From a virus: a DNA stretch of 64,000 nucleotides. Shown here one piece after another: positions 7,732-52,413 of the stretch. Both the position numbers and the translations under genes were made by a program. Numbering within the stretch: position 1 is the stretch's first letter; each line of letters starts with the position of its first letter. Below the pieces are notes generated by a model. It ran no database searches. It was not told the DNA's origin and saw nothing but the letters and a program-made list of their open reading frames with translations. Location: the IMG/VR virus record IMGVR_UViG_3300033182_000538, positions 62,001-126,000 of that record. One strand, given 5' to 3'.

Positions 7732-7734
7732 AAC

Positions 7735-7878
7735 TTAGATTGTTCTATATCTTCTTTTGTTGTTTAGTTTAAGTCTATACGACTTACCCATATAACTTTT
7801 TGATTGTACTCTATCGTTAAAATCGTTTCTAATGGTATTTAATTGTGTATTACCATTTTCTTGATTATTATTATTCAT
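7735..7878 (-). CDS. Small basic Asn-rich protein, 47 residues
   Basis: Starts MNNNNQENGN and ends in a basic segment (KLNNKRRYRTI). Its ATG overlaps the end of the P-loop kinase gene region, and 3 nt separate its stop from the next start. Unknown; possibly nucleic-acid binding because of the basic tail. Confidence 0.45.
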   Translation of the reverse strand: MNNNNQENGNTQLNTIRNDFNDRVQSKSYMGKSYRLKLNNKRRYRTI

Positions 7879-20635: not shown

Positions 20636-21407
20636 ACCTATCCTTTATAATGTCCCACGTTTGTTTCATAAGAGAATTACGCTGTCTCCTATCAAATCCT
20701 GAAAACTTCCAAATCTTACCATATTTTATAAAGTACGGAGTTTTGTCATTTCCAAATTGCCAGTTGTGGTTAAACCACCCAAACCTTGTCATATGATTTA
20801 TGTTAAATGATGGGTTTAATTCAAATCTAAAATCAATTCCTAACTCTTGTAACATATAATTATAAACCGGCTGGTCAGTTCCTTTTTTTACATCTTTCTC
20901 AAATATACAAATTTTTTCGTAATTATCAAAGTAAAATTCTTTTAATTTGTTTAGAAACTCTAAGTGGGATTTTGTAAATATTTGAAATCCACAATCTATA
21001 TACTCTCTGATATTGAATGTTGTGTTTGGAAACATAGTTTGATAACCAGCGATACCTTCAGATATCCATCTTAAATTTTCTAAACTTTTAAATACACTAA
21101 GGTTATCCGATGTTTGGTCGAAGAAATTAGGCGTATCCCATTTTATCATATAACTAGCATCTACCACAGCAACTTTATTCCAATCTAAATGTGATAGTTT
21201 AGAATCTAAATCAAACCAACGAGTCCAAGTCACTTTGTGCTTTGATGTATCATAATTTGTGGAATCATATTCATAAAACTCTACATTGTTTTTATTACAC
21301 CAATCTTTCCAAGTTCTTTTTGAGTACTCGAAGTAATCGAAGTTTCCGTGTTTTTCTAATACAGTAGGATTATCACTTTTTACACCTACCCAAAATACTA
21401 CATTCAT
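20628..21407 (-). CDS. GT8-like protein with altered DxD
   Basis: 259 residues, aligning with the downstream GT8-like gene (IDCGFQIFTKSHLEF; GTDQPVYNYM). The position of the DxD reads VAVVDASYMIKWD, so the second acidic residue is missing. It may be inactive, metal-independent, or a specificity partner of its paralogue. Translationally overlaps it by 8 nt. Confidence 0.7.
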   Translation of the reverse strand: MNVVFWVGVKSDNPTVLEKHGNFDYFEYSKRTWKDWCNKNNVEFYEYDSTNYDTSKHKVTWTRWFDLDSKLSHLDWNKVAVVDASYMIKWDTPNFFDQTSDNLSVFKSLENLRWISEGIAGYQTMFPNTTFNIREYIDCGFQIFTKSHLEFLNKLKEFYFDNYEKICIFEKDVKKGTDQPVYNYMLQELGIDFRFELNPSFNINHMTRFGWFNHNWQFGNDKTPYFIKYGKIWKFSGFDRRQRNSLMKQTWDIIKDRYE

Positions 21408-35731: not shown

Positions 35732-35758
35732 ATCGTAACTCTCTTGTTTTGTTTGATA

Positions 35759-35789
35759 TAAATATACGAAAAATATTTATTAAATCCTA
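35759..35789 (-). promoter_or_regulatory. Probable promoter at head of glycan module
   Basis: TATATTTA (35759-35766) preceded by TTTTTCG. At the expected 20-nt distance the -33 triplet is TAG, not TTG, so it is weaker or activator-dependent. Ends 27 nt before the GT4 start. Confidence 0.55.
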
Positions 35790-36124
35790 TTATAATCATC
35801 TTCAATTCGGACAATATCATCCTCACCAAAATATGTTCCTGTTTGAACTTCTATGAACTCAACAACTTCATCAGTTTCATTCCAAGCTCTATGTTTTGCT
35901 CCCAAAGGAATATTTATACTTTCACCATAATCTCTGAATACTTTATCATCATCCAAAACTATTGTAAGTGTTCCTTTTGTAACAATCCAAACTTCTTGTC
36001 GTTTATTGTGATATTGGTATGATAACTTTTGTCCAGGATTTACTGTAATCTTTTTGACCTTACATTCAGTCCAATCATAAAGTACTTCATACTTTCCCCA
36101 CGGTCTATTCTCTATAACTCTCAT
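35780..36124 (-). CDS. Mannose-6-phosphate isomerase type II-like cupin
   Basis: 114 residues, equal to the C-terminal cupin domain of ManC/WbpW-type enzymes. ENRPWGKYEVL, VNPGQKLSYQYHNKRQEVWIV (metal His/Gln/Glu), IPLGAKHRAWN and IEVQTGTYFGEDDIVR. It would interconvert Fru-6-P and Man-6-P, feeding GDP-mannose and so the Gmd branch. No guanylyltransferase domain is in the window. Confidence 0.88.
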   Translation of the reverse strand: MRVIENRPWGKYEVLYDWTECKVKKITVNPGQKLSYQYHNKRQEVWIVTKGTLTIVLDDDKVFRDYGESINIPLGAKHRAWNETDEVVEFIEVQTGTYFGEDDIVRIEDDYNRI

Positions 36125-38022: not shown

Positions 38023-38430
38023 TTACTTAGCCCACTTCTTTCTTTGGACTATCTGAGATATGATTCCGTATACACTTAAATCTTCGTAAGTGTCTTGGAT
38101 ATTTTCACCAACCTCATCTGGTTCACCTAATACAACTAATTGTTTTAGTCTCTGAATTTTGTCGTTCTTTCTAAACCATAGTCCCACTAATGATAGTTTA
38201 ATATCATCATCAGATTCTAAGTTAGTTCCGACTGAGATGTTACCAGGTCCGTAGTTTCTTTGTTTTTTACAAAAGGTTTCGTACATCTCATCTAAAATCT
38301 TTTTAAACTCTTTTGTAGTCTCAGGGTACAATCTTTCACAATACTCTATTGCGTTTTCTTCTTGCTTATCCTTTTCAACCCTCTCAGAATAATTCACCTT
38401 GTTTTTTCTTTCTTTTATTACTTCAACCAT
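38023..38430 (-). CDS. DUF1599 / nucleotide-modification-associated domain protein
   Basis: 135 residues. FCKKQRNYGPGNISVG, LWFRKNDKIQRLKQL and IQDTYEDLSVYGIISQ fit the all-alpha DUF1599 (Nmad1) family as remembered, found beside base-modification genes in phages and bacteria and distantly like MazG folds. Possible role in nucleotide or modified-base metabolism. Overlaps gene 62. Confidence 0.65.
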   Translation of the reverse strand: MVEVIKERKNKVNYSERVEKDKQEENAIEYCERLYPETTKEFKKILDEMYETFCKKQRNYGPGNISVGTNLESDDDIKLSLVGLWFRKNDKIQRLKQLVVLGEPDEVGENIQDTYEDLSVYGIISQIVQRKKWAK

Positions 38431-38858
38431 TTTTTGATTTCTTTTTTATCAACACCAAATTTTTGAATGATTTCCATCACCTCATCTTTGGATAATATTT
38501 CAAGGTAATCCTTGACTTCTCTCTGAGATACTTCAAAATATTTTGATAGGTAACTCAGTACTTTCTCATTGTATTTATCACTACCCTTTGCTTTGATGTA
38601 TTTATCAAAACTTCGTTTCTTAGGTAGAACATCTAAATACAATTTGTAAACATCCCTTGGATTGAGCTGACCAATGGTGTACTTTTGTAACTCATTGACC
38701 AACTCTAATAGTCCCATATTCATAGATAAAAATCTATTGACCATAAATGGTTCAAAGGTTTTTCTATCCATAACCGAAAGAGACTCCCAAGAGGTTTTCT
38801 TCTCCTTTATGCCAGAAAGATGCTGAAATAGTGTTTTAGCTTTCTTCGTTTCCGACAT
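38418..38858 (-). CDS. 62: Clamp loader small subunit, gp62-like
   Basis: 146 residues. FEPFMVNRFLSMNMGLLELVNELQ, then LPKKRSFDKYIKA and a helical C-terminus with two short repeats, matching gp62 of marine T4-like phages (T4 gp62 is 187 residues). Works with gp44 to load the gp45 clamp. It is separated from gene 44 only by a zinc-ribbon gene, supporting the call. Confidence 0.78.
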   Translation of the reverse strand: MSETKKAKTLFQHLSGIKEKKTSWESLSVMDRKTFEPFMVNRFLSMNMGLLELVNELQKYTIGQLNPRDVYKLYLDVLPKKRSFDKYIKAKGSDKYNEKVLSYLSKYFEVSQREVKDYLEILSKDEVMEIIQKFGVDKKEIKKWLK

Positions 38859-39114: not shown

Positions 39115-40037
39115 TACTTATTAATTCCCATTAAAATGTTTAACATCATCGCCATTACGTTGATTTCTTTATCAACTACCATAGAATCTTTGTACTGACC
39201 ATCTGCGATGTTTAAGATAGTCTGACCCACTTTACCACTTGCGTAATTATCTACCTCATCATAAAGAGCCCTATATAAAGGAGTAAAGTCCTTTACCTTA
39301 GAGTCAGCGATGATTTGTCTGATTTCAGTAAATTGTTGTTTTATATCACCAGTTTCTTTGAGAATGTTTATAACATTTTCAGTATAGTTCGCTTGAACAG
39401 TGGATGTAGCATCAATCTTTAATGTACCATTTACCACTTGTCGCTGTGCAGCATTTAATACTCTACGAATATCAGGATAACCACTATTGACAAGAACGGC
39501 AAGGTCTTCTTTATTGAACTCAACACCCTCTTCATTTAAGATATCAAACAATCGCTTTGCCACTTCTTTTTTAGATGGTGGTGTAATAGCGAATGTCTGA
39601 CATCTACTTTGGATTGGGTCAATCACTTTTTCGACATAGTTACAAGTCAAAATGAAACGAGTAGATTTACTGAAAGTTTCCATTAGATTACGAAGTGCAG
39701 CTTGAGCGTTTGGTGTCAAGTAGTCTGCCTCATCCAAGATTACAACTTTCCACTTACGGAATCCCATAGATGATGCGAATCCACGAATCTTATCACGAAC
39801 TGCATCTACGGAGTTTTCATCCGAAGCGTTGATGTACATAACATCACAATCAATCTGATTGGTAATGATTTTAGCGAGGGTAGTCTTACCTGTACCTGCT
39901 ACTCCGTAGAGTAACAAGTGAGGTACATCCTCATTCTCAATGTAAATCTTTACTTTCTCAAGGATATGTTCGTTTCCAACATAACCTTCTAAACTATTCG
40001 GGCGGTAGCGTTCCACCCAGAGACTATTATTACTCAT
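39114..40037 (-). CDS. 44: Sliding-clamp loader ATPase gp44
   Basis: 307 residues. AAA+ domain: WVERYRPNSLEGYVG, Walker A GVAGTGKT (45-52), Walker B VILDEAD (99-105), sensor 1 TCNY and the arginine-finger motif SRC. Pentameric loader with gp62. Overlaps the DruA-like gene by 4 nt. Confidence 0.96.
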   Translation of the reverse strand: MSNNSLWVERYRPNSLEGYVGNEHILEKVKIYIENEDVPHLLLYGVAGTGKTTLAKIITNQIDCDVMYINASDENSVDAVRDKIRGFASSMGFRKWKVVILDEADYLTPNAQAALRNLMETFSKSTRFILTCNYVEKVIDPIQSRCQTFAITPPSKKEVAKRLFDILNEEGVEFNKEDLAVLVNSGYPDIRRVLNAAQRQVVNGTLKIDATSTVQANYTENVINILKETGDIKQQFTEIRQIIADSKVKDFTPLYRALYDEVDNYASGKVGQTILNIADGQYKDSMVVDKEINVMAMMLNILMGINK

Positions 40038-41224
40038 CGACCTACTTCTTTTAAGTATTTCTTTTTACAATCTTCCCAAGACATTCCAATGATATCTAAG
40101 TAAAACAATGGTTCTGGCTTAATACGACCTTCATCATAGAGTTTTGTATATCTACGAATAGCTTTAGGTTTCCACCAATTCATTGTGTATTCATCACCAT
40201 CAACAAACTTTTTCTTCATATTTAACTGATTATCATCAATTTCATTACGAAGAAACTCATTCCCATTATCATACATCTGAGCGAAGTATACACCTCTTTT
40301 GAATCCGTGTTGATACTGAGATTGTTTGATTCCCAACTCTTTGAAAATCATAGTTAGAATACGTTGTTTTACACCTGATACAGGCCCTTCGATACCTTCT
40401 TTCTGAGTAGTATTCTTTGTATACTCTTCAGATTTATGTTCTTTCAACCATTGGTGCCACACATCGTAATATGTGTCATCTGGTTTAATTGATACCTTTC
40501 CTGCTGACTCACCCAATGTCTTAAAGTGTGGGATACCATTATATTGAGAGTGGATACCATACAAAGATGTGGTGCCTACTGCGATAAGGGTCTGACCATA
40601 TTTTTCTTTCCAATAATCTCTAACTATTGGGCTGGTCGTTAAACAGGCGACTAACTTACCACCTAAGAAATTGTATCCTAAAGGTTGTGTACATACAATG
40701 GTGGTAGCGATAGTAGTGTGATTTAATTTACCATCTTTGAATTTGTTGTCTTTTGACCAACCAATGTAGGTATCTCGAACTCCCAATGAGGTAACATCAG
40801 AACCCAACGAAACTAATCCTAATAACTTACCACTAACTCGGTCTTTGATGTATAACTTTACGTTACGACCTGGATTAGCTACGAAAGACATCGTGTGAAT
40901 CAGTTTACGGATTTCAGTCCAACGAGTGGATTCCTTTGAATCCTTAACAATCTCAACATATGGTTCAAGGGTCTCAATCTCTTGGATTGTTTGTTCTTTG
41001 TTCATAATGTCAGTTGGAGCCCACAATTGGTCAATATATTGAGCCATTGCGGCTTTCCTCTTCATAGAGTTGGATAAGTCTGAATTCCACTCATCCCACT
41101 TCTTGTAAAGAGTTTGTTCCTCTACAGTCATAGATTGAAGATAGTCCATATTCTCAATGAACTTCTTCTTCTCGTTATCGTAGTTGAACTCTGGCTTCGC
41201 TGGTTCTGTGTCCCAAAATTGCAT
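40034..41224 (-). CDS. DUF4338/DruA-like protein between clamp and clamp loader
   Basis: 396 residues. Middle part: LLGLVSLGSDVTSLGVRDTYIGW, LNHTTIATTIV, DYWKEKYGQTLIAVGTTSLYG and NGIPHFKTLGESAGK. The order LGxxSxG...RDxxIGW...KYGxxLxxxxT...YxxxxFxxLGxxxGK resembles the DUF4338 family that includes DruA of Druantia defence systems; this is from memory, without an alignment. N- and C-terminal extensions are phage-specific. Embedded between genes 45 and 44, it is likely co-expressed with the replisome. Confidence 0.5.
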   Translation of the reverse strand: MQFWDTEPAKPEFNYDNEKKKFIENMDYLQSMTVEEQTLYKKWDEWNSDLSNSMKRKAAMAQYIDQLWAPTDIMNKEQTIQEIETLEPYVEIVKDSKESTRWTEIRKLIHTMSFVANPGRNVKLYIKDRVSGKLLGLVSLGSDVTSLGVRDTYIGWSKDNKFKDGKLNHTTIATTIVCTQPLGYNFLGGKLVACLTTSPIVRDYWKEKYGQTLIAVGTTSLYGIHSQYNGIPHFKTLGESAGKVSIKPDDTYYDVWHQWLKEHKSEEYTKNTTQKEGIEGPVSGVKQRILTMIFKELGIKQSQYQHGFKRGVYFAQMYDNGNEFLRNEIDDNQLNMKKKFVDGDEYTMNWWKPKAIRRYTKLYDEGRIKPEPLFYLDIIGMSWEDCKKKYLKEVGR

Positions 41225-41225
41225 A

Positions 41226-41921
41226 TTACTTAATTTCTACTAAATAATAATTTGATTTAAATCCATCGTGCTCAAACGAAACGTGAGCAAGTCCTTGAGG
41301 AGAAATCTTCAATGAAGATGATTTAGCACCTCTATTAGCATTTAGAATTTCTTTCAAATACTTAGCTGAGAAAGAAATAGGTTCAACATCACCCTCACAA
41401 GTACAATCAACATTGATAGAGATTCTATTTGAGTTGATTTTAGAATAACCCAAGATTACCTCACCTTTGTTTTCTTTACAAGTGAATGTAAATGTATCTG
41501 AATCAGACATAGCACCCTTTGCTTTTGTAAACGTAGATACAAAGTCATCATCCATTGTGATTGTAGATGTAAAAGGAGGAAGTTGTTTCAACTCAGGTAC
41601 AACTGGAATCACCGATAAATCAGCCAACATATAGTTTACTGATGTTTTAGTGTCCGAGAAAACCAAAGCTGCGTCACCTTCGTTTACATCAACTTGACTA
41701 CCCAATACACCGAGTAGACCTTTTAGTTGAGATGTGGTGTAAACACCATACTCACCATTTGGAAATTCCTTCTCCTCAGATGATACACTACCCAAAAGAG
41801 TTTTGTCATCCGAAATAAAAGATACTTCCATTCCTTCATCGGTTGAGTTGATTTTTACACTCTCAACCTCACCACCCAAGTTATATCGGGCGATAAATCC
41901 TTCAAACGAACTTTTTTTCAT
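41226..41921 (-). CDS. 45: DNA polymerase sliding clamp gp45
   Basis: 231 residues (T4: 228). Beta-rich clamp fold; segments YTTSQLKGLLGVLG, LPPFTSTITMDDDF and ISFSAKYLKEILNANRG match gp45. Forms the trimeric processivity ring for gp43. It has its own promoter 24 nt upstream. Confidence 0.92.
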   Translation of the reverse strand: MKKSSFEGFIARYNLGGEVESVKINSTDEGMEVSFISDDKTLLGSVSSEEKEFPNGEYGVYTTSQLKGLLGVLGSQVDVNEGDAALVFSDTKTSVNYMLADLSVIPVVPELKQLPPFTSTITMDDDFVSTFTKAKGAMSDSDTFTFTCKENKGEVILGYSKINSNRISINVDCTCEGDVEPISFSAKYLKEILNANRGAKSSSLKISPQGLAHVSFEHDGFKSNYYLVEIK

Positions 41922-41944
41922 ACTTTTTATTGTTTAATGTTAGA

Positions 41945-41975
41945 CTAATATACGAAATTTATTTTTAATATCCAA
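41945..41975 (-). promoter_or_regulatory. -33/-7 promoter for gene 45 operon
   Basis: TTG (41973-41975), 20-nt spacer ending TTTCG, TATATTAG (41945-41952). Clear of coding sequence except that the -33 box precedes the gp43 stop. Confidence 0.87.
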
Positions 41976-41976
41976 A

Positions 41977-44496
41977 TTAAAATGAGAAAAATTGTGATGC
42001 AGCTGCAAGGTTCGGATTTGGTTTCTCCCAATCCATAGCTTTGTAGAAGTCATCAAGTTTATTATTCAACTCTTTTTCCCAAATCAAATCATAATCAATG
42101 TATTGTTGGATAAACTCATTTATTTGTGGTGGGTCTGAGTGACCCGTAAACGCTGTGGTCTGAAGACCAAGCGGGTTCTTCTTCAAATATACCCATTTAA
42201 TCTTGTCACCATCTTTCATTGGTTCATACTTGTAAGGTGCGTTAAACTTCTTCAACAATTGGTTGTAAGTAATAGCCGCCTTAACGTGAGCAGGCGTTCC
42301 CTTCTTGAATTCACCCAATGCTTGATTCTTAAATAGATACTTTGACATATCCTTTACCGCTGAGTTCTTTGCGATGTCTACAAAGTTTTGACTGGTCATT
42401 CCATCTTTATAATCCAAAATCTTTTGGTCAATCTCATCTTTGTTAGTAGACTTTAGAATGTCCATCAAAACCGTTGACATCACTTCCTTGAAGTATGTTG
42501 GGAATGAACTTCGTTTTACATCAAGTCCCTTCACATCCAACTTATCACAAGGTACAGTATTGTCATTAATAATCCATTGTGCGTATCTCTTCTTTGATAC
42601 CCAAAAACCACCCTTTGCGATAGTCTCTTGTTTGATATCAAATCGGTGAGTATCCACATTGAACATCTTATATGCCATTACATCATATACTTTGTTGATA
42701 TGTGTTTCTACTTCTTTTGCAACTGATAGAATCGCTGGAATCATTTCTTCATCCGAATCTTCGTTGATGTTTGGATTACGAGACTTTACCAATGGTGCAG
42801 CTTGATAGAATACTGAATCAGTATCAGTATATACATTGTAATCTGCTTCCTTACCAATGTTCTTTGTATAGTATTGGTTAGCAATCATCTCAGTAGTCTT
42901 AATCACCGACTGACCTGTAATGGTAGTTGCTTCCGCATTATCCACATCGTAGAATCTGAATGATGGTAGACCCAATACACCATAAAGGGAGTTCAACATA
43001 ATCTTTTGAACCAATTGTCTCTGAGAGTAGAACTTGTAGAGTTCATCATTACCTTCTTTACCATACTTCTTCATAAGGTCTTTGTACTCCACACGTTTGT
43101 CAAACCAAACATTAAGAATCTCAGGAATCACACCAACTTTGTCTCTACGATAAAGTACACCATTTGCTGCGATTGAGTAATCATTCTTCTGAACAAACTC
43201 TAAGAATCGGTCTTTAGGTAGTGGTGGGAACTCATTACCATCATCATCTACAATTGAGTATGATTCAATCTTACCCTTCATATGGTCTTCAGATGAATAG
43301 TTCTTCAATTTACCAATCTTGGTCTCTGGCGAGATATTGATTGTCATAATGATAGATGGATATAGTGATGTCAAATCCAAATCGTATACCCACTTGTAAA
43401 GACCAGGTTTTGGTTCTTTTACATAAGCACCCGTAAACTTACCTTCACCATCAGACCCATCAGCATTACGATTCATTCTCTTTGGTTTATTAGGAGCTAC
43501 CCTACCACTCCTTCTCAAGAATGTCAAGATAGCACCCTCTAACCACTTTGATGAGAATAAAAAGTCTTCATAGAAAACGTGACCAGCGTGACAAATCGCC
43601 TGAGCCAATTGAATGAACTGAAGTTTCTTGTCCATATCAACAACCAACTCCACATCCACCAAGTTATACTCAATGAACTTTTCCAAGTCATCTCTGAATA
43701 GTTGGTCAAGGTTTCCTTCATACTCAATCTTACCACGACCCAATGTCATATTAGCAATAGTGTCTAATCGGTAGTTTGGGAATTCTTGGTAGGTAAAGTT
43801 CTTGAACAACGCAAGATAATCCAAACACGAAATACCAGCGATGATATATCTATTACGATACTTGTTCCAACTAACCTTTCCAATAGGAGACAATTCGTTT
43901 GCTTTTCGTTCACCAAAAAGAACCTTAATACGATTGTATAGGTAGGTAACATCAAAGTAGTCAATGTTCCAACCAGTCACAATAGTAGGATTGATTTCTT
44001 TCCATTTGTTGATGAAAGCAATCACCATTTCCTCTTCAGTATCAAACGACTCTACTTGAGCTCCCTTGATAGTTTTGTTGATTTTCTCACCTTTGTTTAC
44101 TACATAGACAAAGTAATCGCCAGTTACGGAATCGTGACCAGCGACTGATGTCATTGCGTTCTGAGCTTCATTAATATCAGGTAAACCACTATTCATCTCT
44201 ACCTCAATATCAAATGTCAAAATAGTATGACCTTTAGAGATTTCATCTGAATCACCATACTCATCAATCAGAAAACGAGTTACTTCATTTACATCACTTT
44301 CGTATAGCTCCAAGTCATCTTCTTGTTTCCAAAAGTTTATCTTTTTAAGACGCTCTCCGTGAATAGAAGTATGAGCACCATTACCATCTCTAACGTAACC
44401 ATATCTACGGTACTTAGATGTGAAGTAACCTTTTTCATCATCCCAACAATGGATGATAGATTTTTCTTTTTCATAGTATACGTTTTGATATGCCAT
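41977..44496 (-). CDS. 43: Family B DNA polymerase gp43
   Basis: 839 residues (T4: 898). Exonuclease motifs: TFDIEVEMNSG (Exo I), GWNIDYFDVTYLYNR (Exo II) and YNLVDVEL (Exo III). Polymerase motifs: DLDLTSLYPSII (A), KIMLNSLYGVLG (B) and YTDTDSVFY (C). Replicative polymerase with intact proofreading. It overlaps the upstream GT-B gene by 1 nt, so the two are translationally linked. Confidence 0.97.
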   Translation of the reverse strand: MAYQNVYYEKEKSIIHCWDDEKGYFTSKYRRYGYVRDGNGAHTSIHGERLKKINFWKQEDDLELYESDVNEVTRFLIDEYGDSDEISKGHTILTFDIEVEMNSGLPDINEAQNAMTSVAGHDSVTGDYFVYVVNKGEKINKTIKGAQVESFDTEEEMVIAFINKWKEINPTIVTGWNIDYFDVTYLYNRIKVLFGERKANELSPIGKVSWNKYRNRYIIAGISCLDYLALFKNFTYQEFPNYRLDTIANMTLGRGKIEYEGNLDQLFRDDLEKFIEYNLVDVELVVDMDKKLQFIQLAQAICHAGHVFYEDFLFSSKWLEGAILTFLRRSGRVAPNKPKRMNRNADGSDGEGKFTGAYVKEPKPGLYKWVYDLDLTSLYPSIIMTINISPETKIGKLKNYSSEDHMKGKIESYSIVDDDGNEFPPLPKDRFLEFVQKNDYSIAANGVLYRRDKVGVIPEILNVWFDKRVEYKDLMKKYGKEGNDELYKFYSQRQLVQKIMLNSLYGVLGLPSFRFYDVDNAEATTITGQSVIKTTEMIANQYYTKNIGKEADYNVYTDTDSVFYQAAPLVKSRNPNINEDSDEEMIPAILSVAKEVETHINKVYDVMAYKMFNVDTHRFDIKQETIAKGGFWVSKKRYAQWIINDNTVPCDKLDVKGLDVKRSSFPTYFKEVMSTVLMDILKSTNKDEIDQKILDYKDGMTSQNFVDIAKNSAVKDMSKYLFKNQALGEFKKGTPAHVKAAITYNQLLKKFNAPYKYEPMKDGDKIKWVYLKKNPLGLQTTAFTGHSDPPQINEFIQQYIDYDLIWEKELNNKLDDFYKAMDWEKPNPNLAAASQFFSF

Positions 44497-45629
44497 TAAC
44501 CTTGTAACCTTTTATGTAATTCTTTAATCATTATATCTTCATTCAAAGATAGTTCCACAGCCCTTACGACTGACATACTGTCTCGTTCTTGTCTGAATGT
44601 GTCATCATCCAACAATTTATCAAGATAATCAAATAAGTCTTTTTTATACTTGAAGAACATTCCGTTTGGGTCAATCTCGTGATAACAATCAGATTCATTC
44701 CAAATCATAGGACACCCGTTCATCATACAATCCGTACCACTTACTGACCACCCATAGTTAGTTTGTCTCATTTGGATACCTACCAAACAATCTTGCAATC
44801 TCTTGTAGTAATCGTGTTTAGGTACTTTTGTATTATCAATCCAAGAATATGGTGGGTCACCTTTTAGTTGTGGAATCCACACCTTGAAATCTTCTCGTTG
44901 TTTACGATACTCTTTCATCAGTTCAATAAACTTTGGATATCCCTTGTATGCAGCTGCACGATGGTTAAATACGATTACTCTATCTTTAGAGTCTTTGATA
45001 CCATCAACAATCTTGTCTTTAGGTAATCCTAAGTTCCATACTTTTAGAATTCCATCCAACTTCTGAACAAACTCTTCGTTGAATAGTTCTCTTGCTTCAT
45101 TCAATACTCTATTCTTTTGGTCTTGAGTATTAAGATAACATACATCCATTTGAGATACACCAAGTAGTTCAATAGGTAACCACAACCACTTAGGTTTACC
45201 AGCTCTATTGTCCGGCCCATTACACGATTTCATTTCCCACCAATGACAATAACCCACAATCTTAGTGTCCATTGTTTTTTTGTATCTACCCACTTGAACC
45301 CAATCTGGTAGGTGTGAATAGATTACATCGTAATCAATGTCTTTGAGTAGATTGATAAGTTTAGATGATGGGAATGACCTCTGATTCATCATATCACCAG
45401 GAATGTCAATTTGGTGTTGTTTGACATTTGGTAGATTCAACTTCTTACTGATTTTGCCAGTGGGCATTAGGATATTCCAATAGTAATCGCCATAAGAGTC
45501 CAATGCTTTGATGTGGTTATGAATCACATCAACAAATGAATCTTTATCAATGTTGGAAGAATTCGTTATGTTTGGTATAACGAGTACCTTCCTTGCTTTA
45601 CTATAATCTATTGCTTCCCAAAACTGCAT
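44496..45629 (-). CDS. GT-B-like glycosyltransferase adjacent to DNA polymerase
   Basis: 377 residues. N-terminal Rossmann half (VLVIPNITNS; IYSHLPDWVQVGRYKKT; VGYCHWWEMKS), linker, then RVIVFNHRAAAYKGYPKFIEL and SGTDCMMNGCPMIWNES, the donor-binding side of GT-B enzymes. T4 and relatives glucosylate hydroxymethylcytosine in DNA with GT-B enzymes. Location between gp43 and an ATPase/Mom group makes DNA the possible acceptor, but no hydroxymethylase is visible here. Confidence 0.65.
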   Translation of the reverse strand: MQFWEAIDYSKARKVLVIPNITNSSNIDKDSFVDVIHNHIKALDSYGDYYWNILMPTGKISKKLNLPNVKQHQIDIPGDMMNQRSFPSSKLINLLKDIDYDVIYSHLPDWVQVGRYKKTMDTKIVGYCHWWEMKSCNGPDNRAGKPKWLWLPIELLGVSQMDVCYLNTQDQKNRVLNEARELFNEEFVQKLDGILKVWNLGLPKDKIVDGIKDSKDRVIVFNHRAAAYKGYPKFIELMKEYRKQREDFKVWIPQLKGDPPYSWIDNTKVPKHDYYKRLQDCLVGIQMRQTNYGWSVSGTDCMMNGCPMIWNESDCYHEIDPNGMFFKYKKDLFDYLDKLLDDDTFRQERDSMSVVRAVELSLNEDIMIKELHKRLQG

Positions 45630-47404
45630 TATACAAATAAGTTTTTATGAGCAGTATTAACCTTAGATTCTACATTGTAATAATCGGTGATTAATTCATC
45701 TTTTTTATATAATCTAACTCTACCCAAACTTCTATCAATACCAATCCCATACTTTGGTTTCTCATAGTGATTCTTACTATTCACAAAGTTGAATTTAGTA
45801 TAAGGGCCTATTTTTCGTTGATTATATTCGTATGTAGAAAACGATGCGTATTTAGTAGCTGAGTGATTATTAGGTACTCGCTGTCCATTTTGAATGTTTG
45901 GTTTAATGTATTTTTTCCAAGCATCACTAATTGTTTTTATTATTAAATCATCAGATTCAACGCCCACTAACGCATCTTCAACATTAAATGATGTAATTGA
46001 ATTTTCATATAATTCAATTGCGGATGAGAATGATGGTTCATCATAAACATCATCATCGTAAGCAGAGTATAAAGAAATACCCAATTCTTTAGCTATATCT
46101 AAATAATAATCAGTATTTAATTGAAAGTCTTTTGGATTTTCTAATATATCAATTCCCAATTGAGCTGTTGGTTTATCAAATGAAACAAACATATTTTGAA
46201 ATAAATCCTCATAAGTTTTATTAAACTCACCCATATCATCAACATACCTACATAATCTACCTAATAAACCTTGTAGTAAAGATGTAACTACCTTTGATGA
46301 TTCAACAATACCCTTTATGAATGGTTTGTTTTGATGATATAGATTAGTCAATTCTCCATATGTTTGAACAGGGAATAACTCTTTATCAACTAACTTATCC
46401 AAGTTAACACCACATCCCAAAGAACCATCAATAAACAATGCAACATCTTTTCCATTTAATTTTGAATATTCAAATGTTCTTTTGATTATTTCGGTTAAAG
46501 TTCTTTCAGATTTATCAACTGTATCCAATCCTATCAACTCCAAACCTTCGTTATATGCTTCAGAGTTAAGTTCAACTTTGTTTGAAGTTTCACCCATACA
46601 TATAACAGATGGTATACCCCAATCTGATAACATACGCAATGCAGCTTCCATTATTTCTCTTGGCTTTAATCTAATAATATAGACACCAAATCTATCTACT
46701 TCAGTAGTATTACTATGTTGAGCCAATCTTTGCATTATATACGATACATTATTTTTATCATACTGAATAAAGTAGGTCACTCCATCATCAACATTTTTTA
46801 ACAAATGAGGAACGCCTCTATAATGTTCATTTGGTTCTATTTTATGATAAATGATATCACTACCACGAGATGCATCTAACATAGAAATATTAGTTGCACC
46901 AACTGCTCCAAATGTACAACCAATATCTCTTAGCTCCTTAGCCAAATTTACATATCTACTTTTAGCTTGGGGTGTAGTTCCAAACTGGTCCTCATCAAAG
47001 AATACCAAATCTTGAGGCGTTAAATTTTTTATGAATTCATCTTGCTTATGTGGTTTGAAGAAGTGTAGTAATCGCTGAAATCTATAATCAACGGAACTCA
47101 TTTGGGTTACTGCTCTATTCAAACCATCAACGTGAGCAGTAGATGTATATGATGTAGTTATATATGATTTTGATTTTGGGTCTCTATCTAACCACAAAGA
47201 AGCAACACCAATCATAATTTGAGTTTTACCACTCTGCATTGGTGCAGATATTGTAAAGTAAGGAAGTTCAGACTTATACGCAGGGTCAGTTATCTTTTTG
47301 AAGATAGATTGAGCTTCATCAATCTCATCGGGTTTTGGTGGATTAATTGGATTGGTTTTCCAAGTTTCAAATAAGCTTTTTGAATTTTCTTTTTTTAATC
47401 TCAT
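45629..47404 (-). CDS. SF2-type helicase/ATPase
   Basis: 591 residues. Walker A SAPMQSGKTQ (about 53-62), Walker B LVFFDEDQF, a motif III-like GAVGATNIS, and GLLGRLCRY resembling the SF2 arginine-finger motif VI. It could translocate on DNA or RNA. It is not an obvious UvsW or Dda. It lies directly downstream of the two Mom-like genes, in a separate transcription unit with its own promoter. Confidence 0.72.
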   Translation of the reverse strand: MRLKKENSKSLFETWKTNPINPPKPDEIDEAQSIFKKITDPAYKSELPYFTISAPMQSGKTQIMIGVASLWLDRDPKSKSYITTSYTSTAHVDGLNRAVTQMSSVDYRFQRLLHFFKPHKQDEFIKNLTPQDLVFFDEDQFGTTPQAKSRYVNLAKELRDIGCTFGAVGATNISMLDASRGSDIIYHKIEPNEHYRGVPHLLKNVDDGVTYFIQYDKNNVSYIMQRLAQHSNTTEVDRFGVYIIRLKPREIMEAALRMLSDWGIPSVICMGETSNKVELNSEAYNEGLELIGLDTVDKSERTLTEIIKRTFEYSKLNGKDVALFIDGSLGCGVNLDKLVDKELFPVQTYGELTNLYHQNKPFIKGIVESSKVVTSLLQGLLGRLCRYVDDMGEFNKTYEDLFQNMFVSFDKPTAQLGIDILENPKDFQLNTDYYLDIAKELGISLYSAYDDDVYDEPSFSSAIELYENSITSFNVEDALVGVESDDLIIKTISDAWKKYIKPNIQNGQRVPNNHSATKYASFSTYEYNQRKIGPYTKFNFVNSKNHYEKPKYGIGIDRSLGRVRLYKKDELITDYYNVESKVNTAHKNLFV

Positions 47405-47431
47405 TGATATGTTTTAGATTTTAATGTTTTA

Positions 47432-47462
47432 CAAACATACGAATAATTTTTTAATTATCCAA
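47432..47462 (-). promoter_or_regulatory. -33/-7 promoter for SF2 ATPase gene
   Basis: TTG (47460-47462), 20-nt spacer ending ATTCG, TATGTTTG (47432-47439), a perfect TAnnTTTG. Ends 27 nt before the ATG. Confidence 0.87.
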
Positions 47463-47468
47463 ATATTT

Positions 47469-48260
47469 TTACCAAAAACTTACTTGATTTTCTGGCTCGT
47501 AAGTTTCGTGTCTTTCAATCGGTGGTAAGAACTCTTCTGCGTTCTTAGGATACGGACTCGTTTTGTGTTTGAGTCGTTTAGTTAGTTGCCGCTTTTCAGA
47601 TTTGTTCTGACCTAATACTTGAATGTATCGGTGTTTAGGAGCTTCTCTCTTTCTCCAAAACTCTTTGTACCCATCTTTACCAATCTCGGTTTTGAGATGT
47701 TCTACGTTGTGACTACCCCACTTTGAAAATACAGTTCTTGAGTGAATCCACTTATGTGGGTTTTCTAAGGATACTGAATAGTTAGGCATTAGTTGAATAT
47801 CACGACAATCTTGATATAACCAATTCGTTGCTTGATAGATACCACCTAAATGTAATTGTTCAGGGTCAGCGTAACTCAACAACATTTTTATGTTTGGTGC
47901 GTTTTCACGAATCCATTTAAATGATTGACCCATAGCGTATGATTCAATATTTGACCCATAACCATCGTGGATGAACAATCGTGTCAATTCCAAACATTGG
48001 TCTTTTTCTAATCCATCAATTACTGAAGTGATTGCTGACCTTCCTACTGGATATCCATAAACTAAACATCCGATTAATTTTTCATCATTTCCAAGAATGT
48101 CTATTTCATCTGATTTATAGAAGATACCAAGAGCATATCTACACATAGTCCAAGCGTGGGAGTAGTGATGGGTTACAATCATCTCCTTAGCAATAGGTTT
48201 ATTTATTTCACGAATCGTTACTCGTGATGTGTCAACATATGTCTTATTTGCTTCTTTCAA
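47469..48260 (-). CDS. Mom-like DNA modification protein (copy 1)
   Basis: 263 residues. GNAT-like Mom pattern: THHYSHAWTMCRYALGIF, KLIGCLVYGYPVGR, LELTRLFIHDGYGSNIES, LLSYADPEQLHLGGIYQATNW. Phage Mu Mom converts adenine to N6-carbamoylmethyladenine and so blocks host restriction. The start is a TTG overlapping the end of copy 2; homology to copy 2 begins right after it. The C-terminal 70 residues are basic (KHRYIQVLGQNKSEKRQL). Confidence 0.8.
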   Translation of the reverse strand: MKEANKTYVDTSRVTIREINKPIAKEMIVTHHYSHAWTMCRYALGIFYKSDEIDILGNDEKLIGCLVYGYPVGRSAITSVIDGLEKDQCLELTRLFIHDGYGSNIESYAMGQSFKWIRENAPNIKMLLSYADPEQLHLGGIYQATNWLYQDCRDIQLMPNYSVSLENPHKWIHSRTVFSKWGSHNVEHLKTEIGKDGYKEFWRKREAPKHRYIQVLGQNKSEKRQLTKRLKHKTSPYPKNAEEFLPPIERHETYEPENQVSFW

Positions 48261-48999
48261 TCGGTTCTAATTTATAAATCTCTTCCTCAAATAATTCACT
48301 TTTCTTCGGATAGGGTAAAGATGGGTACTTGAGTGTTTTCAATATACGACTTTTTTTTGACTTATCCAAAATATAAACGTATCTATGTTTCCGTGGTTCT
48401 TTTTTAATCCAAAATGGTTTATTTATCATCTCTTGGATTTTTTTTGGGTTGTTTGTCCCAAATTTTACGAATGAAGTCCGACTATGATGCCACTCATCAT
48501 CTTCAGACCACTTGAAAGACCAAGAATCGTTAGGTCTTACTTTGTTTCCTTGATATATCCAATTTGTTGACTGATATACAGTCCCCAAGTGACCAACCTT
48601 TGGGTCTGAGTAGGATATCAATGCTCTAATGTGTTTTGCGTGTTCTCGTAACCACTTGAATGTTTGTCCAACGAACCAGCTTTCTATATTACACCCATAC
48701 CCATCAAATACGAATAATCGTGTAAGTTCTAATACTTCGGTTCGTTCAAGAAGTGGTGATATGGACTGACCAGAGTGTCTACCTATGGGGTCACCATATG
48801 TAGCTACTCCAATCAACTTGTCCGTGGATTCAAAGAATTGGTGAGAGTCATCTTGTATATACAATCCAAGTGCGTAAGATACCTTTGTCCAAATCCCACT
48901 ATAATGGTTGTTTACCACTATATCTTTTGCGACTGATTTGGAAATAGGTCTTACTGATAACTTAGAAATGTCAGTATATACCTTCCCTTCAATTTTCAT
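48244..48999 (-). CDS. mom: Mom-like DNA modification protein (copy 2)
   Basis: 251 residues. NNHYSGIWTKVSYALGLY, LIGVATYGDPIGR, VLELTRLFVFDGYGCNIES, ALISYSDPKVGHLGTVYQSTNW, the same core as copy 1 and as Mu Mom. The C-terminus RKHRYVYILDKSKKSR is shared with copy 1. The two copies are co-translated but clearly diverged, so they may modify different sites or form a heteromer. Confidence 0.82.
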   Translation of the reverse strand: MKIEGKVYTDISKLSVRPISKSVAKDIVVNNHYSGIWTKVSYALGLYIQDDSHQFFESTDKLIGVATYGDPIGRHSGQSISPLLERTEVLELTRLFVFDGYGCNIESWFVGQTFKWLREHAKHIRALISYSDPKVGHLGTVYQSTNWIYQGNKVRPNDSWSFKWSEDDEWHHSRTSFVKFGTNNPKKIQEMINKPFWIKKEPRKHRYVYILDKSKKSRILKTLKYPSLPYPKKSELFEEEIYKLEPIERSK

Positions 49000-49214
49000 T
49001 GATAATCGTTAAATTCACCAAATAATATATGAGTCCAAGTTTCACCTTTCACAATCTTACGAATGTTGGCGGGTGATACACCATTGTTTCGGGCCAATAC
49101 TCTAATGTTTCGGTGTCCCACAGCCCATAGTTTACGAATAGACCTTACTTGTTTTTCCGTTAATTTATGTTGTGGATGTGATTCGCCTCTTAATGCCATT
49201 TTGTATCTTTTCAT
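48996..49214 (-). CDS. Helix-turn-helix protein, homing-endonuclease-associated type
   Basis: 72 residues. HKLTEKQVRSIRKLW...ARNNGVSPANIRKIVKGETW is the DNA-binding repeat usually attached to HNH homing endonucleases, here without a nuclease. It is either a remnant or a small regulator. Its start overlaps the preceding stop (ATGA). Confidence 0.75.
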   Translation of the reverse strand: MKRYKMALRGESHPQHKLTEKQVRSIRKLWAVGHRNIRVLARNNGVSPANIRKIVKGETWTHILFGEFNDYQ

Positions 49215-49621
49215 TCAAAGGGTATTTCTAATTGACCACCATCAGTCAAAAATTGTCCAATATTAGGTTTAGAAAAGTTAGGCCCCTTTAATACCTTACC
49301 ATCTTCACGATAGATAGGTTTACCATCTTCTCCTAATTTAGACATATTAGAACGATGTACCTCATCAAACACTTGTTCAATGATATTGCTCATTCCGTGA
49401 GCAACCATAGTACCCAAAAGGATATATAATTGGTCAGCAAGTGCATCGGTAACCTCAACAAGGTCATCGTTATTACAAGCATCTAAATACTCAACCAATT
49501 CCTCTTTACCCAACCGATATCTCAAGTAATAATCATCTGGCTCAAGTAATGTTGGTTTTGAGTTTCTTGTTTGGTTATAAGCTTTCTGAAAATCCCAAAG
49601 TTGTTGTAACTGCTTTTCCAT
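49211..49621 (-). CDS. MazG-like nucleotide pyrophosphohydrolase
   Basis: 136 residues. GKEELVEYLDACNNDDLVEVTDAL-type acidic helix pair (ExxE...ExxD metal sites split over residues 39-60), then DQLYILLGTMVAHG and EVHRSNMSKLGEDGKP, typical of phage MazG/PRA-PH-like enzymes that hydrolyse NTPs or dNTPs. May clean up nucleotide pools or ppGpp-related signals. The promoter lies 7 nt upstream of the ATG. Confidence 0.82.
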   Translation of the reverse strand: MEKQLQQLWDFQKAYNQTRNSKPTLLEPDDYYLRYRLGKEELVEYLDACNNDDLVEVTDALADQLYILLGTMVAHGMSNIIEQVFDEVHRSNMSKLGEDGKPIYREDGKVLKGPNFSKPNIGQFLTDGGQLEIPFE

Positions 49622-49658: not shown

Positions 49659-50204
49659 AATCATTTCATTGTTTTTTAAACCACTTGGTTCAGTATCCCA
49701 AAGGTTTATAGCTATTGCGTATCTTGTACCACGAGTAACTTTAGTAACTCGGTGTGGATACTCACCCGCTGGAAATATTACGAGTCTATTATATTTTGCT
49801 TCTATACGTTCTGGCTCATTATCTTGACCTTTAGAGAATATTTCTAAATACCCACCATCGATGTCGTGGTTTCTTGGGTAATATACCGTACCAATTACAG
49901 GAGTAACCAAAGTTCTTTCAGTATCCCACAAATATTCATCTTTGTCAAAGTGCATCTTTAATTCATCCCTTTCATCTTCTTGGGAATATACACCTGTCCA
50001 ATATTCAAATCCAACACAATTTATTGGAACGTGTGGTGACCTTTCACCCCAAATGTATTCTATAAGTTCTTTTTTCAAAGTGTTTGCTGGAGAGTTCCAC
50101 CACCCATACCACCAAAAGTAACCTTTGGTTTCAAAAAAAGTCTCATCACGTTCTAATCTATTTAAAAACTCTTGGTCTTTTATAAAATCATCTATTACTA
50201 TCAT
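49647..50204 (-). CDS. 2OG/Fe(II)-dependent oxygenase
   Basis: 185 residues. H85-x-D87 (MHFDKDEYLW), distal H151 and a following Arg (GEYPHRVTKVTRGTR), the facial triad and 2OG site of the P4H-like superfamily. Third such enzyme in the window. Overlaps glf by 4 nt. Confidence 0.82.
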   Translation of the reverse strand: MIVIDDFIKDQEFLNRLERDETFFETKGYFWWYGWWNSPANTLKKELIEYIWGERSPHVPINCVGFEYWTGVYSQEDERDELKMHFDKDEYLWDTERTLVTPVIGTVYYPRNHDIDGGYLEIFSKGQDNEPERIEAKYNRLVIFPAGEYPHRVTKVTRGTRYAIAINLWDTEPSGLKNNEMILEN

Positions 50205-51295
50205 AATGTCTTCACTTTCTTTAATGCCGAAGCTATAACTTGATGCATATCGTAATATTTGTATTCAGCCAATCTACCACCAAAAATCACATTTGGTGTA
50301 TCATCAGCCATTTGTTTGTATTTACGATATTTCTCATTATTTACCTCATCATTCAAAGGATAAAACGGCTCTACCCCTCTTTTGTAATTCTGAGGATATT
50401 CATAACTTATATATGTACCTTTTTGATTTTGATTATCAAAATGTTTGTGTTCTATTCTTCGAGTTTGTAGTGATGTTGAATCCGTAAAATTCATACCAGC
50501 ACATCCTTGTAAATTATCTACATCTTCAAAGTAGAAGTTTTCCCATCTAACGGACTTATATTCCAAATCACCATATTTGTAATCAAAATACTTGTCGATT
50601 GGGCCTGTATAAATTACTTTATCGGTGAGGTCATCCCAATACTCTTTATTTTCCAAATAATCACAATCGGTATAAACTTTAACATCTTTCAACAACTTTT
50701 CAAATATCTGAGTGTATCCTCCGATTGGTATTCCTTGATATTTGTCAAAGTAATAGTTGTTATCCCAAGTAAACCTTACAGGTAATCGTTTTATGATTGA
50801 CTTTGGTAGGTCTTTCGGGTCTTTTTTCCATTGTTTGATTGTATAATGTTTTATCAACTTTTCATAGATGTCCGTACCAACAAGTGAAAGAGCTTGCTCT
50901 TCAAGATTTGTAGGATTTCCTTTGAATCGTTGTGATTCAATCTTTTGCTTTGCTTGTTCTGGTGTCTTTACACCCCACATTTGATTGAATGTAAACATAG
51001 TAAATGGTAAAGAATACAACTCACCATTATAATTAGCTATTGGATTATATCTAAAACTATTGAATTCAGCAAAATGATTAATCCAATCCCAAATACGCTT
51101 ATCATTCGTATGAAATATATGTGGGCCGTACTGATGAACGTGAATTCCACCAACATCTTCAGTATATGTATTTCCTCCAATATGATTACGCTTTTCCAAA
51201 ACAAGAACTTTCTTACCTTTCTTGTTTAACTCGTAAGCACATATAGAACCGAAAAATCCAGCCCCAACGATTATGTAATCGTATTTATCACTCAT
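50201..51295 (-). CDS. glf: UDP-galactopyranose mutase
   Basis: 364 residues, normal length. FAD-binding DYIIVGAGFFGSI, VLEKRNHIGGNTYTED, QYGPHIFHTND, and later YTGPIDKYFDY and VIFGGRLAEYKYYDM. Converts UDP-Galp to UDP-Galf, so galactofuranose is probably part of a phage-directed glycan. Confidence 0.96.
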   Translation of the reverse strand: MSDKYDYIIVGAGFFGSICAYELNKKGKKVLVLEKRNHIGGNTYTEDVGGIHVHQYGPHIFHTNDKRIWDWINHFAEFNSFRYNPIANYNGELYSLPFTMFTFNQMWGVKTPEQAKQKIESQRFKGNPTNLEEQALSLVGTDIYEKLIKHYTIKQWKKDPKDLPKSIIKRLPVRFTWDNNYYFDKYQGIPIGGYTQIFEKLLKDVKVYTDCDYLENKEYWDDLTDKVIYTGPIDKYFDYKYGDLEYKSVRWENFYFEDVDNLQGCAGMNFTDSTSLQTRRIEHKHFDNQNQKGTYISYEYPQNYKRGVEPFYPLNDEVNNEKYRKYKQMADDTPNVIFGGRLAEYKYYDMHQVIASALKKVKTL

Positions 51296-52413
51296 ATATT
51301 ATTCAATGCTATTTGATGTAATTTTTGAGGTTCATCACTTGTATCAAAGTAAGCCCAATCGTTTATAAGAAATACTTTATTTGGAAACGGATTTGGTCGA
51401 TTCTCATCCACCATCATACTTGTAGCTTGATACATCTGAAGATATTCATTTCTATCATTATGGATTTTAGCTAATTCATAGTATGATTCGTTTCTACTCT
51501 TACAAAATTCAGATGCTCTATTGTACCAAATAATGGAATCATCAATTTTACCAATCAATTTACAAATATTACCAATACAATGAGCTGCATAGAATGAGAA
51601 CTCATCATCAAATTCAACAACTTTATCAGATTCGTATTTTGGATGTTTTCTATTTATAAATTGTCTAAAATAAAATATAGCTCTTCTTGCAAACTCTTCT
51701 CTATGTGCGTGTCCGAATGGAAATTCATCTCTAAGTGTATCGTGGTATGATTTACCAATATACCATAGGTGATAATCATCCTCAAGAACTTTATTGTTTG
51801 GAATTACATCTAATTCTAAATTTAGAGCATCCTTTAGAAACTTCATAGGTTGTAACCAAGTTTGACCATCATTCGTTAGATAGTGTCTAAATGATTTCGG
51901 TAGATTTACTCTTTGAAAGTTTTCACCAATATCATCTCTATCCAAGTAAATTGTTTCGTGAGCTTTCTCAGGATAAAATCTCCAAGGTTCTTTAGCATTC
52001 CATAACCAAGTTCTAAAATAAGAAACACCTGGCGCTGTACAAGGTATATTAAAACTCTGAATTGTTGTATCATCGAATATAGACCAATCAAAGTCTTCAT
52101 CAACTATTAGTTGTTCATCAGCATCTACTCTCAAAATCCAATCACATCCGTGGTCAGCCTCAAGAGCGGTTTGTACACAATGGTCTCTATTGATACCGTG
52201 ACCCTTCCACCAATCTAATTCATATAAAAAGCCAGGTATACCCTTTTCTTCAAAAAAGTTACGAATGATATCTTGAGTACCATCGGTAGACCCGTTGTCT
52301 TGTATAACCCAATAATCAATATATGGATAAACTGAATTCAACATACGTTCGATAACGTGTGCTTCATTGTTTACCATAGTATTAAAACAAAACTTTGTTT
52401 GTGTGTTTTTCAT
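51292..52413 (-). CDS. GT2 glycosyltransferase with helical C-terminal domain
   Basis: 373 residues. CFNTMVNNEAHVIERML, VIQDNGSTDGTQDI and the metal DxD WILRVDADEQLI. The C-terminal 130 residues are helical with a TPR-like pattern (IIWYNRASEFCKSRNESYYELAKIH). Beside glf it could use the Galf donor. Confidence 0.85.
   Translation of the reverse strand: MKNTQTKFCFNTMVNNEAHVIERMLNSVYPYIDYWVIQDNGSTDGTQDIIRNFFEEKGIPGFLYELDWWKGHGINRDHCVQTALEADHGCDWILRVDADEQLIVDEDFDWSIFDDTTIQSFNIPCTAPGVSYFRTWLWNAKEPWRFYPEKAHETIYLDRDDIGENFQRVNLPKSFRHYLTNDGQTWLQPMKFLKDALNLELDVIPNNKVLEDDYHLWYIGKSYHDTLRDEFPFGHAHREEFARRAIFYFRQFINRKHPKYESDKVVEFDDEFSFYAAHCIGNICKLIGKIDDSIIWYNRASEFCKSRNESYYELAKIHNDRNEYLQMYQATSMMVDENRPNPFPNKVFLINDWAYFDTSDEPQKLHQIALNNI

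Follow-up and report, generated by a model that had tools for sequence, protein, structure and literature searches.

A conserved tandem pair of Mom-family genes beside the replicative polymerase of a T4-like phage: a putative exchangeable DNA-modification cassette

Mom, the enzyme that puts an unusual chemical group on adenine, is one of the classic curiosities of base modification in phages. In the stretch of viral DNA analyzed here, two such genes, designated momA and momB, lie in tandem and overlap. This stretch, referred to as the window, comprises 64,000 nucleotides (positions 62,001 to 126,000 of IMG/VR record IMGVR_UViG_3300033182_000538). The locus raises the question of why a phage would keep two Mom genes, whether both are working enzymes, and what their position next to the replication genes may mean. 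The features on which the answer depends are collected in Table 1.

Table 1. Features of the Mom locus and the adjoining replication genes, in window coordinates
Feature	Position	Strand	Description
DruA-like protein	40034..41224	-	PF14236/DUF4338, 80.5 bits; PADLOC DruA 1.5e-25; N-terminus MQFW..
Sliding clamp, gp45-like	41226..41921	-	phrog_223 DNA polymerase processivity factor, 3.2e-10
Family B DNA polymerase (PolB)	41977..44496	-	gp43-type PDB polymerases, E 3.5e-82; C-terminus ..SQFFSF
GT-B glycosyltransferase	44496..45629	-	Glyco_transf_4 8.4e-5, below cut-off; N-terminus MQFW..
P-loop ATPase-like ORF ('SF2')	45629..47404	-	best PDB match JetC, E 0.13
momA	47469..48260	-	Mom-family GNAT, 263 aa, TTG start
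Codons for MomA C-terminal Phe-Trp (..QVSFW)	47472..47477	-	candidate sliding-clamp-binding tail
momB	48244..48999	-	Mom-family GNAT, 251 aa, ATG start
momB end / momA start overlap	48244..48260	-	17 nt, read directly in the sequence
Small HTH protein	48996..49214	-	72 aa; weak family scores only; 4-nt overlap with momB
MazG-like pyrophosphohydrolase	49211..49621	-	PF01503 1.1e-14; phrog_671 1.4e-37

Both genes belong to the Mom family. The Pfam profile PF25680 (Mom) matches MomA with E 1.5e-48 (165.6 bits) and MomB with E 2.5e-46 (158.4 bits), against a cut-off of 27.1 bits, and the PHROG family phrog_1384, 'Mom-like DNA modification protein', matches them at 8.2e-48 and 1e-51, respectively; in NCBIfam, neither was above any cut-off. 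The two proteins are 44% identical across 258 positions, and they are the only Mom genes in the whole record (G000; 166,988 bp). When AlphaFold models were built from alignments of relatives, the best PDB match of both was Mu Mom (8bv8_A), with Z 20.9, rmsd 4.2, and 28% identity over 180 aligned residues for MomA (pLDDT 87.5), and Z 19.8, rmsd 3.3, and 23% identity over 188 for MomB (pLDDT 83.9). The runner-up matches of both models were other GNAT proteins, all with Z < 12. Thus, the original prediction of two diverged copies of the Mom fold is borne out, the Pfam and PHROG searches having placed both genes with Mom and not elsewhere, and the 17-nt overlap that it described is confirmed by direct reading.

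To follow the pair among relatives, loci were taken from two IMG/VR scans (the best 80 of 121 and the best 80 of 127 relatives, 160 loci); many contigs turned up in both, and identical segments were merged before counting. This left at least 94 distinct segments with both genes, from viral metagenome contigs of which a few have one copy cut at the contig end. The genes overlap by 17 nt in 41 of the 94 distinct pairs, by 14 nt in 15, and by 11 nt in 4, while the remaining pairs have other overlaps or gaps, given that start codons were assigned mechanically. In a Mom tree of 78 rows, the 27 MomA rows form a clade with support of 100/99, and the 31 MomB rows form a weaker one (85/89); MomB, together with a third copy, C, sits across the tree fork from the MomA clade. 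The nearest outsider is the Mom of Polaribacter phage P12002L, which is single in its own record. Judged by these separate A and B clades, the pair is old. Furthermore, an assembly duplication was rejected as its source, given the 94 distinct segments and the depth of the two clades.

It might then be supposed that MomA and MomB are an obligate heterodimer, one enzyme made from two subunits, as the original prediction had allowed. The genes, tandem and mostly overlapping, are kept together in the 94 distinct pairs, the 8bv8 entry holds two Mom chains, and MomB without MomA was seen in a single case, L150, a 6.6-kb fragment with just 1.3 kb downstream of B. However, several loci (L039-L045, L054, and L062) have MomA without MomB and with the HTH gene as its immediate upstream neighbor, though the contigs are fragments and B may lie elsewhere. 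MomA is likewise alone in this position in L219, L221, L222, L225, and L243, some of which are seemingly near copies (L220 and L246 are cut off), and no second Mom was present in those A-only records that were searched whole (L024, L039, L040, L042, L044, L054, and L062; 4.5 to 25 kb). In addition, both copies have the family-invariant residues described below, unlike the usual split into an active and an inactive subunit. Since MomA occurs without MomB, the obligate form is not favored, and we consider a heterodimer of this kind quite unlikely. Because A alone recurs and B alone was seen once, on a fragment, it looks instead as if MomA is the fixed partner and MomB the accessory one.

Extra copies occur as well. 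Copy C, a third tandem Mom that has lost the conserved His173, is present in L047 and L055. A D-type protein, which also scores as Mom, accompanies A and B in 6 of the 57 polymerase-anchored loci described below (from the best 80 of 173 relatives), where it lies between PolB and the clamp; in L021, it occupies the place of B. All 16 of the long records (93 to 245 kb), a sample picked via Mom, have at least two Mom genes, with a third match that is near-full in three and partial in one. Among the named phages matched, Mom is a single gene in nearly all: queries with MomA and MomB gave one Mom place per record in 255 of 255 and 185 of 185 cases, and a query with the Mom of phage PX29 gave 162 places in 161 records, with Psychrobacter phage vB_PmaS_Y8A having two.

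Several findings bear on whether both copies are functional. The 8bv8 entry, in which the protein is named 'Methylcarbamoylase mom', carries the title 'inactive mutant S124A'. In an alignment that includes 13 outside Moms, Mu among them, Mu Ser124 aligns with S107 of MomA and MomB, and this residue is invariant in 27/27 MomA and 31/31 MomB representatives. H32, Y33, R94, N104, D132, G139, Y142, and N146 are also invariant across both sets. Moreover, dN is 0.08-0.15 versus a dS of 1.26-1.84 for both genes (Nei-Gojobori, eight comparisons; dS is near saturation), and both are under purifying selection. Consequently, as far as sequence conservation and predicted structure can indicate, both copies look like working enzymes.

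These results bear on two other explanations of the pair. In one, MomB would be a pseudo-enzyme that serves as a regulator, decoy, or antagonist of MomA, and the several loci that keep A without B are consistent with it. However, MomB retains the family-invariant residues, and its score with the Mom profile is about equal to that of MomA; we regard this reading as very improbable. (Copy C, without the conserved His173, fits the pseudo-enzyme idea better than MomB does.) In the other, which was also raised by the original prediction, the copies would have two sequence specificities, both acting on bulk phage DNA, and the tail of MomA would have nothing to do with the clamp. At twelve alignment columns, MomA and MomB are each fixed for a different state (three of these are gaps in MomB), including R41 in MomA versus the family's S41, near the conserved HY, and purifying selection on both genes would agree with separate roles. 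However, this account leaves unexplained the FW of DruA and GT-B, the PX29 tail match, and the shared slots, all of which are treated below, and it is judged unlikely. Two specificities are compatible with, and not exclusive of, the explanation preferred here.

The mazG-like and HTH genes are present upstream of the pair, as had been stated. The HTH gene is upstream in 88 of the 94 distinct pairs, and of the six in which it was not seen, four are at a contig edge and the others are L129 and L142. It also precedes the lone momA and, in most cases, the enzymes that replace Mom. MazG was ruled out as a core part of the locus, being found in some relatives only; sugar genes near Mom are likewise inconstant among relatives. 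Other neighbors that had been proposed as parts of a modification module fared differently. For the 'SF2 ATPase', neither Pfam nor PHROG gave a match at E 1, and the gene stands beside Mom only in a near-identical contig (L001 among the 80 loci listed; L177 among the 57), with one distant match (23%) in L233, which is outside the 57. Present in 1/57 of the polymerase-anchored loci, it is not conserved and was ruled out as a Mom partner. The DruA-like gene is clear from its Pfam and PADLOC scores, although it has no PDB sequence match. DUF4338 is termed a GNAT domain in the available text of PMC10853773; hhalign of the MomA/B and DruA alignments, with a probability of 0.2 and E 0.27, did not show DruA to be a Mom homologue. 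For the DUF1599/Nmad1 call, a match exists, but its 19.7 bits are under the cut-off of 25. The GT-B neighbor does co-occur with Mom, as shown below, but its family match is weak. As for the replication genes, the clamp has no Pfam match and no PDB sequence match below E 0.16. By its polymerase, the closest named relative is Microcystis phage Mel-JY01 (47.6%); a search of that phage gave no Mom match, with control genomes equally silent in the same search.

The question of which neighbors belong with Mom was addressed with a polymerase-anchored sample (the best 80 of 173 relatives), in which 57 loci have both flanks; the 23 of 80 with a flank missing were left out. Mom and DruA are both present in 38 of the 57 and both absent in 17, and Mom without DruA occurs in none. 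DruA without Mom in view is seen in two, L253, a 13.9-kb fragment, and L254, whose whole record does have a tandem Mom pair. The 38 Mom-positive loci consist of 24 with A and B, 6 with A, B, and D, 1 with A, B, and C, and 7 with A (2 of these cut). Searches of 18 whole records (15 of the 17 loci without Mom and DruA, plus L224, L253, and L254) found both Mom and DruA to be absent from 16 of them, that is, from the 15 and from L224; one of these 16 is 180,769 bp long, and the others are fragments. On the polymerase tree, the presence or absence of Mom and DruA is identical in 42/42 tips, with six changes each, when L253 is left out and L254 is scored as Mom-positive from its whole record. Five independent pairs on starred branches all go in the same direction, which gives p 0.0625, the minimum with five pairs. 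GT-B is present with Mom in 32 of the 38 Mom-positive loci, absent from 17 of the 19 loci scored as Mom-negative, and tracks Mom in four of the five independent pairs; the six Mom-positive loci without it all belong to one clade. The co-occurrence of GT-B and DruA with Mom gives good support to the original prediction of a DNA-modification module around the pair.

Such co-occurrence could be due to physical linkage only, the genes having moved as a single recombination tract. All of them lie within about 9 kb in the window (40034-48999), and L254 has its Mom pair on the same side of PolB as DruA, at a distance of ~8 kb. However, PolB lies between Mom and DruA in the window and in most relatives, and the PolB tree mixes Mom-positive and Mom-negative phages, requiring six changes of Mom status. 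Because of these changes, the polymerase was not carried along with the cassette on every occasion, and the exchange of one stretch of DNA is not the most economical explanation. Recombination tracts could contribute, since the Mom and DruA genes are close together, but linkage as the whole explanation is improbable. Another idea, that there is one clamp type for each Mom status, was rejected, as Mom-positive and Mom-negative loci are mixed on the clamp tree, with four changes.

The relatives that lack Mom have other genes in the same two places, defined here as slot 1 (HTH-[momB-momA-GT-B]-PolB) and slot 2 (clamp-[druA]-clamp loader). In L179, L180, L181, and L231, slot 1 has a protein with P-loop/ABC and GNAT signals (393 aa in L180 and L231), and slot 2 has a TAGT glycosyltransferase (PF20691, 9.4e-36 in L231). 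Neither the ABC nor the GNAT score reaches its Pfam cut-off, and the protein matches phrog_11143 at 8.1e-122, a family for which no function is given; modification of a DNA base by a GNAT protein coupled to an ABC ATPase has been proposed (PMC7824862, a review, in its available part). In L216, L218, L223, L226, L230, L244, and L256, both slots have proteins matching DNA methyltransferases. Of the two in L216, the first matches N6_N4_Mtase below the cut-off and phrog_67 at 4.4e-6, and the second matches phrog_498 at 1.6e-8 and no Pfam family. Finally, in L190-L193, L200, and L214, slot 2 contains a distant GT-B relative (21-22% identity) that itself matches nothing in Pfam or PHROG, and no modifier was recognized in slot 1; L190-L193 also have a small methyltransferase-like protein after PolB. 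Because the Mom-negative relatives hold other likely modifiers there, the slots by the polymerase and clamp look like a site for DNA-modification enzymes, with DruA as one occupant.

The ends of the proteins suggest what might connect these enzymes to the clamp. MomA terminates in FW in 88 of 92 distinct sequences, in YW in 2, and in KFFDI in 2, whereas no such terminus was found in any of 85 distinct MomB sequences. Residues 259-263 of the MomA model are disordered (pLDDT < 50). The ten residues before the F have entropies of 1.4-2.9 bits versus 0.15 for the F itself, computed over the 90 MomA sequences ending in W (and, for DruA and GT-B, over rows containing FW only). In all 54 distinct DruA sequences, the N-terminus consists of M, up to three residues, and then FW. 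An N-terminal FW is found in 40 of 65 distinct GT-B matches, where the misses are chiefly other GTs, at about 21-32% identity where seen; among matches of at least 55% identity, it is present in 36 of 38, and the other two are without the N-terminal part. PolB ends in FF.F in all the patterns listed (28 of 34, from 66 distinct sequences). The phage thus has a clamp of the gp45 type together with a polymerase whose C-terminus is of a clamp-binding type, although the binding of that end to the clamp would be by analogy. Ends of this kind occur on clamp partners in T4-type phages: gp43, gp55, and gp33 bind gp45 through C-termini that can be exchanged for one another, according to the accessible text of PMC2988020; polymerase, ligase, gp33, and gp55 have a binding patch in common (PMC7892883, available part); and in T4 RNase H, the clamp motif is N-terminal (PMC3012046, likewise).

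The motif is uncommon elsewhere in the genome. Among 212 non-overlapping ORFs of G000, an N-terminal FW occurs only in DruA, GT-B, and the ORF at 20628-21407, and a C-terminal FW occurs in MomA alone; a looser terminal pattern is found in 16 of the 212, most of them unrelated. In the polymerase loci, FW or FF stands at a terminus in 129 of 1,576 ORFs (near copies included), with MomA, DruA, and GT accounting for 123 of them. These FW/FF counts are post hoc, since counting began only after the motif had been spotted. The tail of a DNA ligase is not usable as a control, since the ligase profile gave no match in G000. Among other proteins of the slots, the D-type Mom ends in KWFGF, QWFG, or KWFK in four of five examined (L058 is the exception), which resembles the QFFGF of polymerase, and the ABC/GNAT protein ends in KFWDIG or NFWDVE. 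In Mom-negative phages, the GT-like protein ends in NKFF and the small methyltransferase in NKFFSFD; TAGT and the two methyltransferase-like proteins of the replacement cassettes (MTase1 and MTase2) have no FW or FF terminus.

Mom proteins outside this group provide evidence of two kinds. An aromatic pair lies within the last four residues in 5 of 13 outgroup Moms (A511, LP-114, Riggi, JeffCo, and phiSA_BS1), and a single aromatic lies near the end in two more, EauM-23 and P12002L. Because outgroup Moms share terminal aromatics, part of the MomA tail may be ancestral and structural. In Aeromonas phage PX29 (Straboviridae), a long Mom tail ends in GLTDLFGDF, and the phage's own polymerase (gp43) ends in SLTDLFGDW. 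A strict pattern, written after both ends had been seen, selects 2 of 361 PX29 ORFs, Mom and gp43. A looser one selects 13 of 361, including gp33 (LEQFF) and ligase (KKFFG), and nine of the 13 are not known clamp partners. A tail nearly identical to that of the polymerase is found in PX29 only; what is conserved in MomA, DruA, and GT-B is the terminal FW.

Taken together, the findings lead to an explanation that we hold with moderate confidence, in which the products of momB and momA would be two active GNAT enzymes of the Mom type, modifying adenines in the DNA of the phage itself and thereby protecting it against nucleases. The cassette would occupy two slots beside the replicative polymerase and the clamp, and relatives would exchange it for other likely DNA-modification enzymes. 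The terminal FW of MomA, the initial FW of DruA and GT-B, and the FFxF of PolB would be putative sliding-clamp-binding tags, and such tags may recruit the modifiers to newly made DNA. MomA would thus be tethered to the clamp, and MomB, which is untagged and free, might act off the fork or at other sites. Such a division of labor would parallel that of the T4 glucosyltransferases, of which alpha-GT is clamp-bound and beta-GT is not. The enzymatic activity, the base made and its sites, the clamp binding, and the division of labor are what we infer from the genes. A broader version, which we put forward tentatively and think doubtful, is that the region is a clamp-guided, exchangeable hypermodification island, many of whose enzymes carry FW or FF tags, with MomA tethered, MomB untethered, and DruA serving as a DNA-modifying acyltransferase together with Mom, in a lineage of uncultured T4-like phages. 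The alternative cassettes of the island would be the Mom pair with GT-B and DruA, the ABC/GNAT protein with TAGT, two methyltransferase-like proteins, and a GT-like protein with a small methyltransferase.

An old and widely kept pair, one copy with a tail and the other without, makes the targeting of modifiers to new phage DNA a testable matter. Furthermore, the exchange at the slots provides a practical route to new modification enzymes, namely the inspection of genes beside polymerase and clamp. DruA, for which no description of a biochemical role was found, gains a concrete hypothesis. Tandem Mom pairs or a clamp-bound Mom did not appear in the titles and abstract openings found, in a search whose scope left out most subscription papers.

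A comparison with known systems brings out what is distinctive in this arrangement. Phage Mu Mom shares with the present proteins the predicted fold, the conserved residues, including the serine of S124A, and the fact of being phage-encoded. However, there are two tandem paralogues here, one with an extra disordered tail, and they sit in the replication region of a T4-like phage. The partner of Mom in Mu is the regulator Com, whose gene overlaps mom, whereas the HTH gene upstream of the pair has only HTH- and HNH-associated family scores and no Com family; and Mu Mom ends in PYPK, with no such tail, in contrast to the FW of MomA. Druantia offers DruA itself, with the matches given in Table 1, but the present gene lies beside the clamp in a phage replication region and not in a bacterial defense locus, and no Druantia system is claimed; DruA-like proteins have already been reported in six Synechococcus phages (PMC12774648, in its available part). 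The Mom of PX29 has a long C-terminal tail with nearly the same ending as its own gp43, but it occupies a single place in its record and belongs to another branch of the Mom tree. Psychrobacter phage vB_PmaS_Y8A is an isolate with two Mom-like places, one at 7125-7778 and the second being ORF69 at 39393-40157 (per the available text of PMC10434257), but these are ~32 kb apart, and the genes here are in tandem. T4 likewise has a pair of DNA modifiers: gp45 co-purifies with alpha-GT but not with beta-GT, and clamp binding did not explain the dominance of alpha-glucosylation (PMC13216743, as far as its available part goes). The chemistry is different, and the pair described here consists of tandem Mom paralogues, in which a similar attachment of one partner to the clamp would follow from the tail that MomA has and MomB lacks.

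Among the Mom-minus relatives, L231 and L180 carry a 393-aa ABC/GNAT-like protein with the C-termini KFWDIG/NFWDVE, and their DruA slot, between sliding clamp and clamp loader, is filled by a TAGT; together, these proteins are a candidate base-modification pair. Another such relative, L256, has genes for an asparagine-synthase-like protein (C-terminal end DKFFG) and a GNAT (EKFFNI) 5' of the gene for a methyltransferase-like protein, a set that possibly represents a further modification pathway. In the L216 locus, PolB and the clamp are flanked by methyltransferase-like proteins, one per slot, which are alike at their C-termini (CEPIWIWKK, EPIFVFHKK).

Features of the window, the whole record (G000) and related loci
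Feature	Location	Remark
ABC/GNAT-like protein	L231 6791-7969	Mom slot
ABC/GNAT-like protein	L180 6791-7969	Mom slot
Asparagine-synthase-like protein and adjoining GNAT	L256 3859-5864	
Methyltransferase-like protein	L216 5991-7232	one slot
Methyltransferase-like protein	L216 11295-12923	other slot
Tandem Mom triplet	L047 3544-5801	order B, C, A
Tandem Mom triplet	L055 3267-5503	order B, C, A
Y8A Mom-like place 1	OQ059336.1 7125-7778 = L275 2983-3636	annotated hypothetical
Y8A Mom-like place 2	OQ059336.1 39393-40157	
Sugar genes	window 33048-36124 and 50201-52413	around phage replication region
113-aa ORF	G000 38173-38514 = window -23827 to -23486	before window start; in L258; C-terminal end RTQWFD

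Alignment with the Mom family revealed that the C copy of both triplets has lost the family's His173, and the C-terminal PYPK is mostly gone as well. Psychrobacter phage Y8A has two widely separated Mom-like places, the second of which is called Mom in that phage's paper (PMC10434257).

The sugar genes encode glycosyltransferases, a mannose-6-phosphate isomerase-like cupin and UDP-galactopyranose mutase. The 113-aa ORF may specify a small clamp-binding protein, for example, a counterpart of T4-type gp33.
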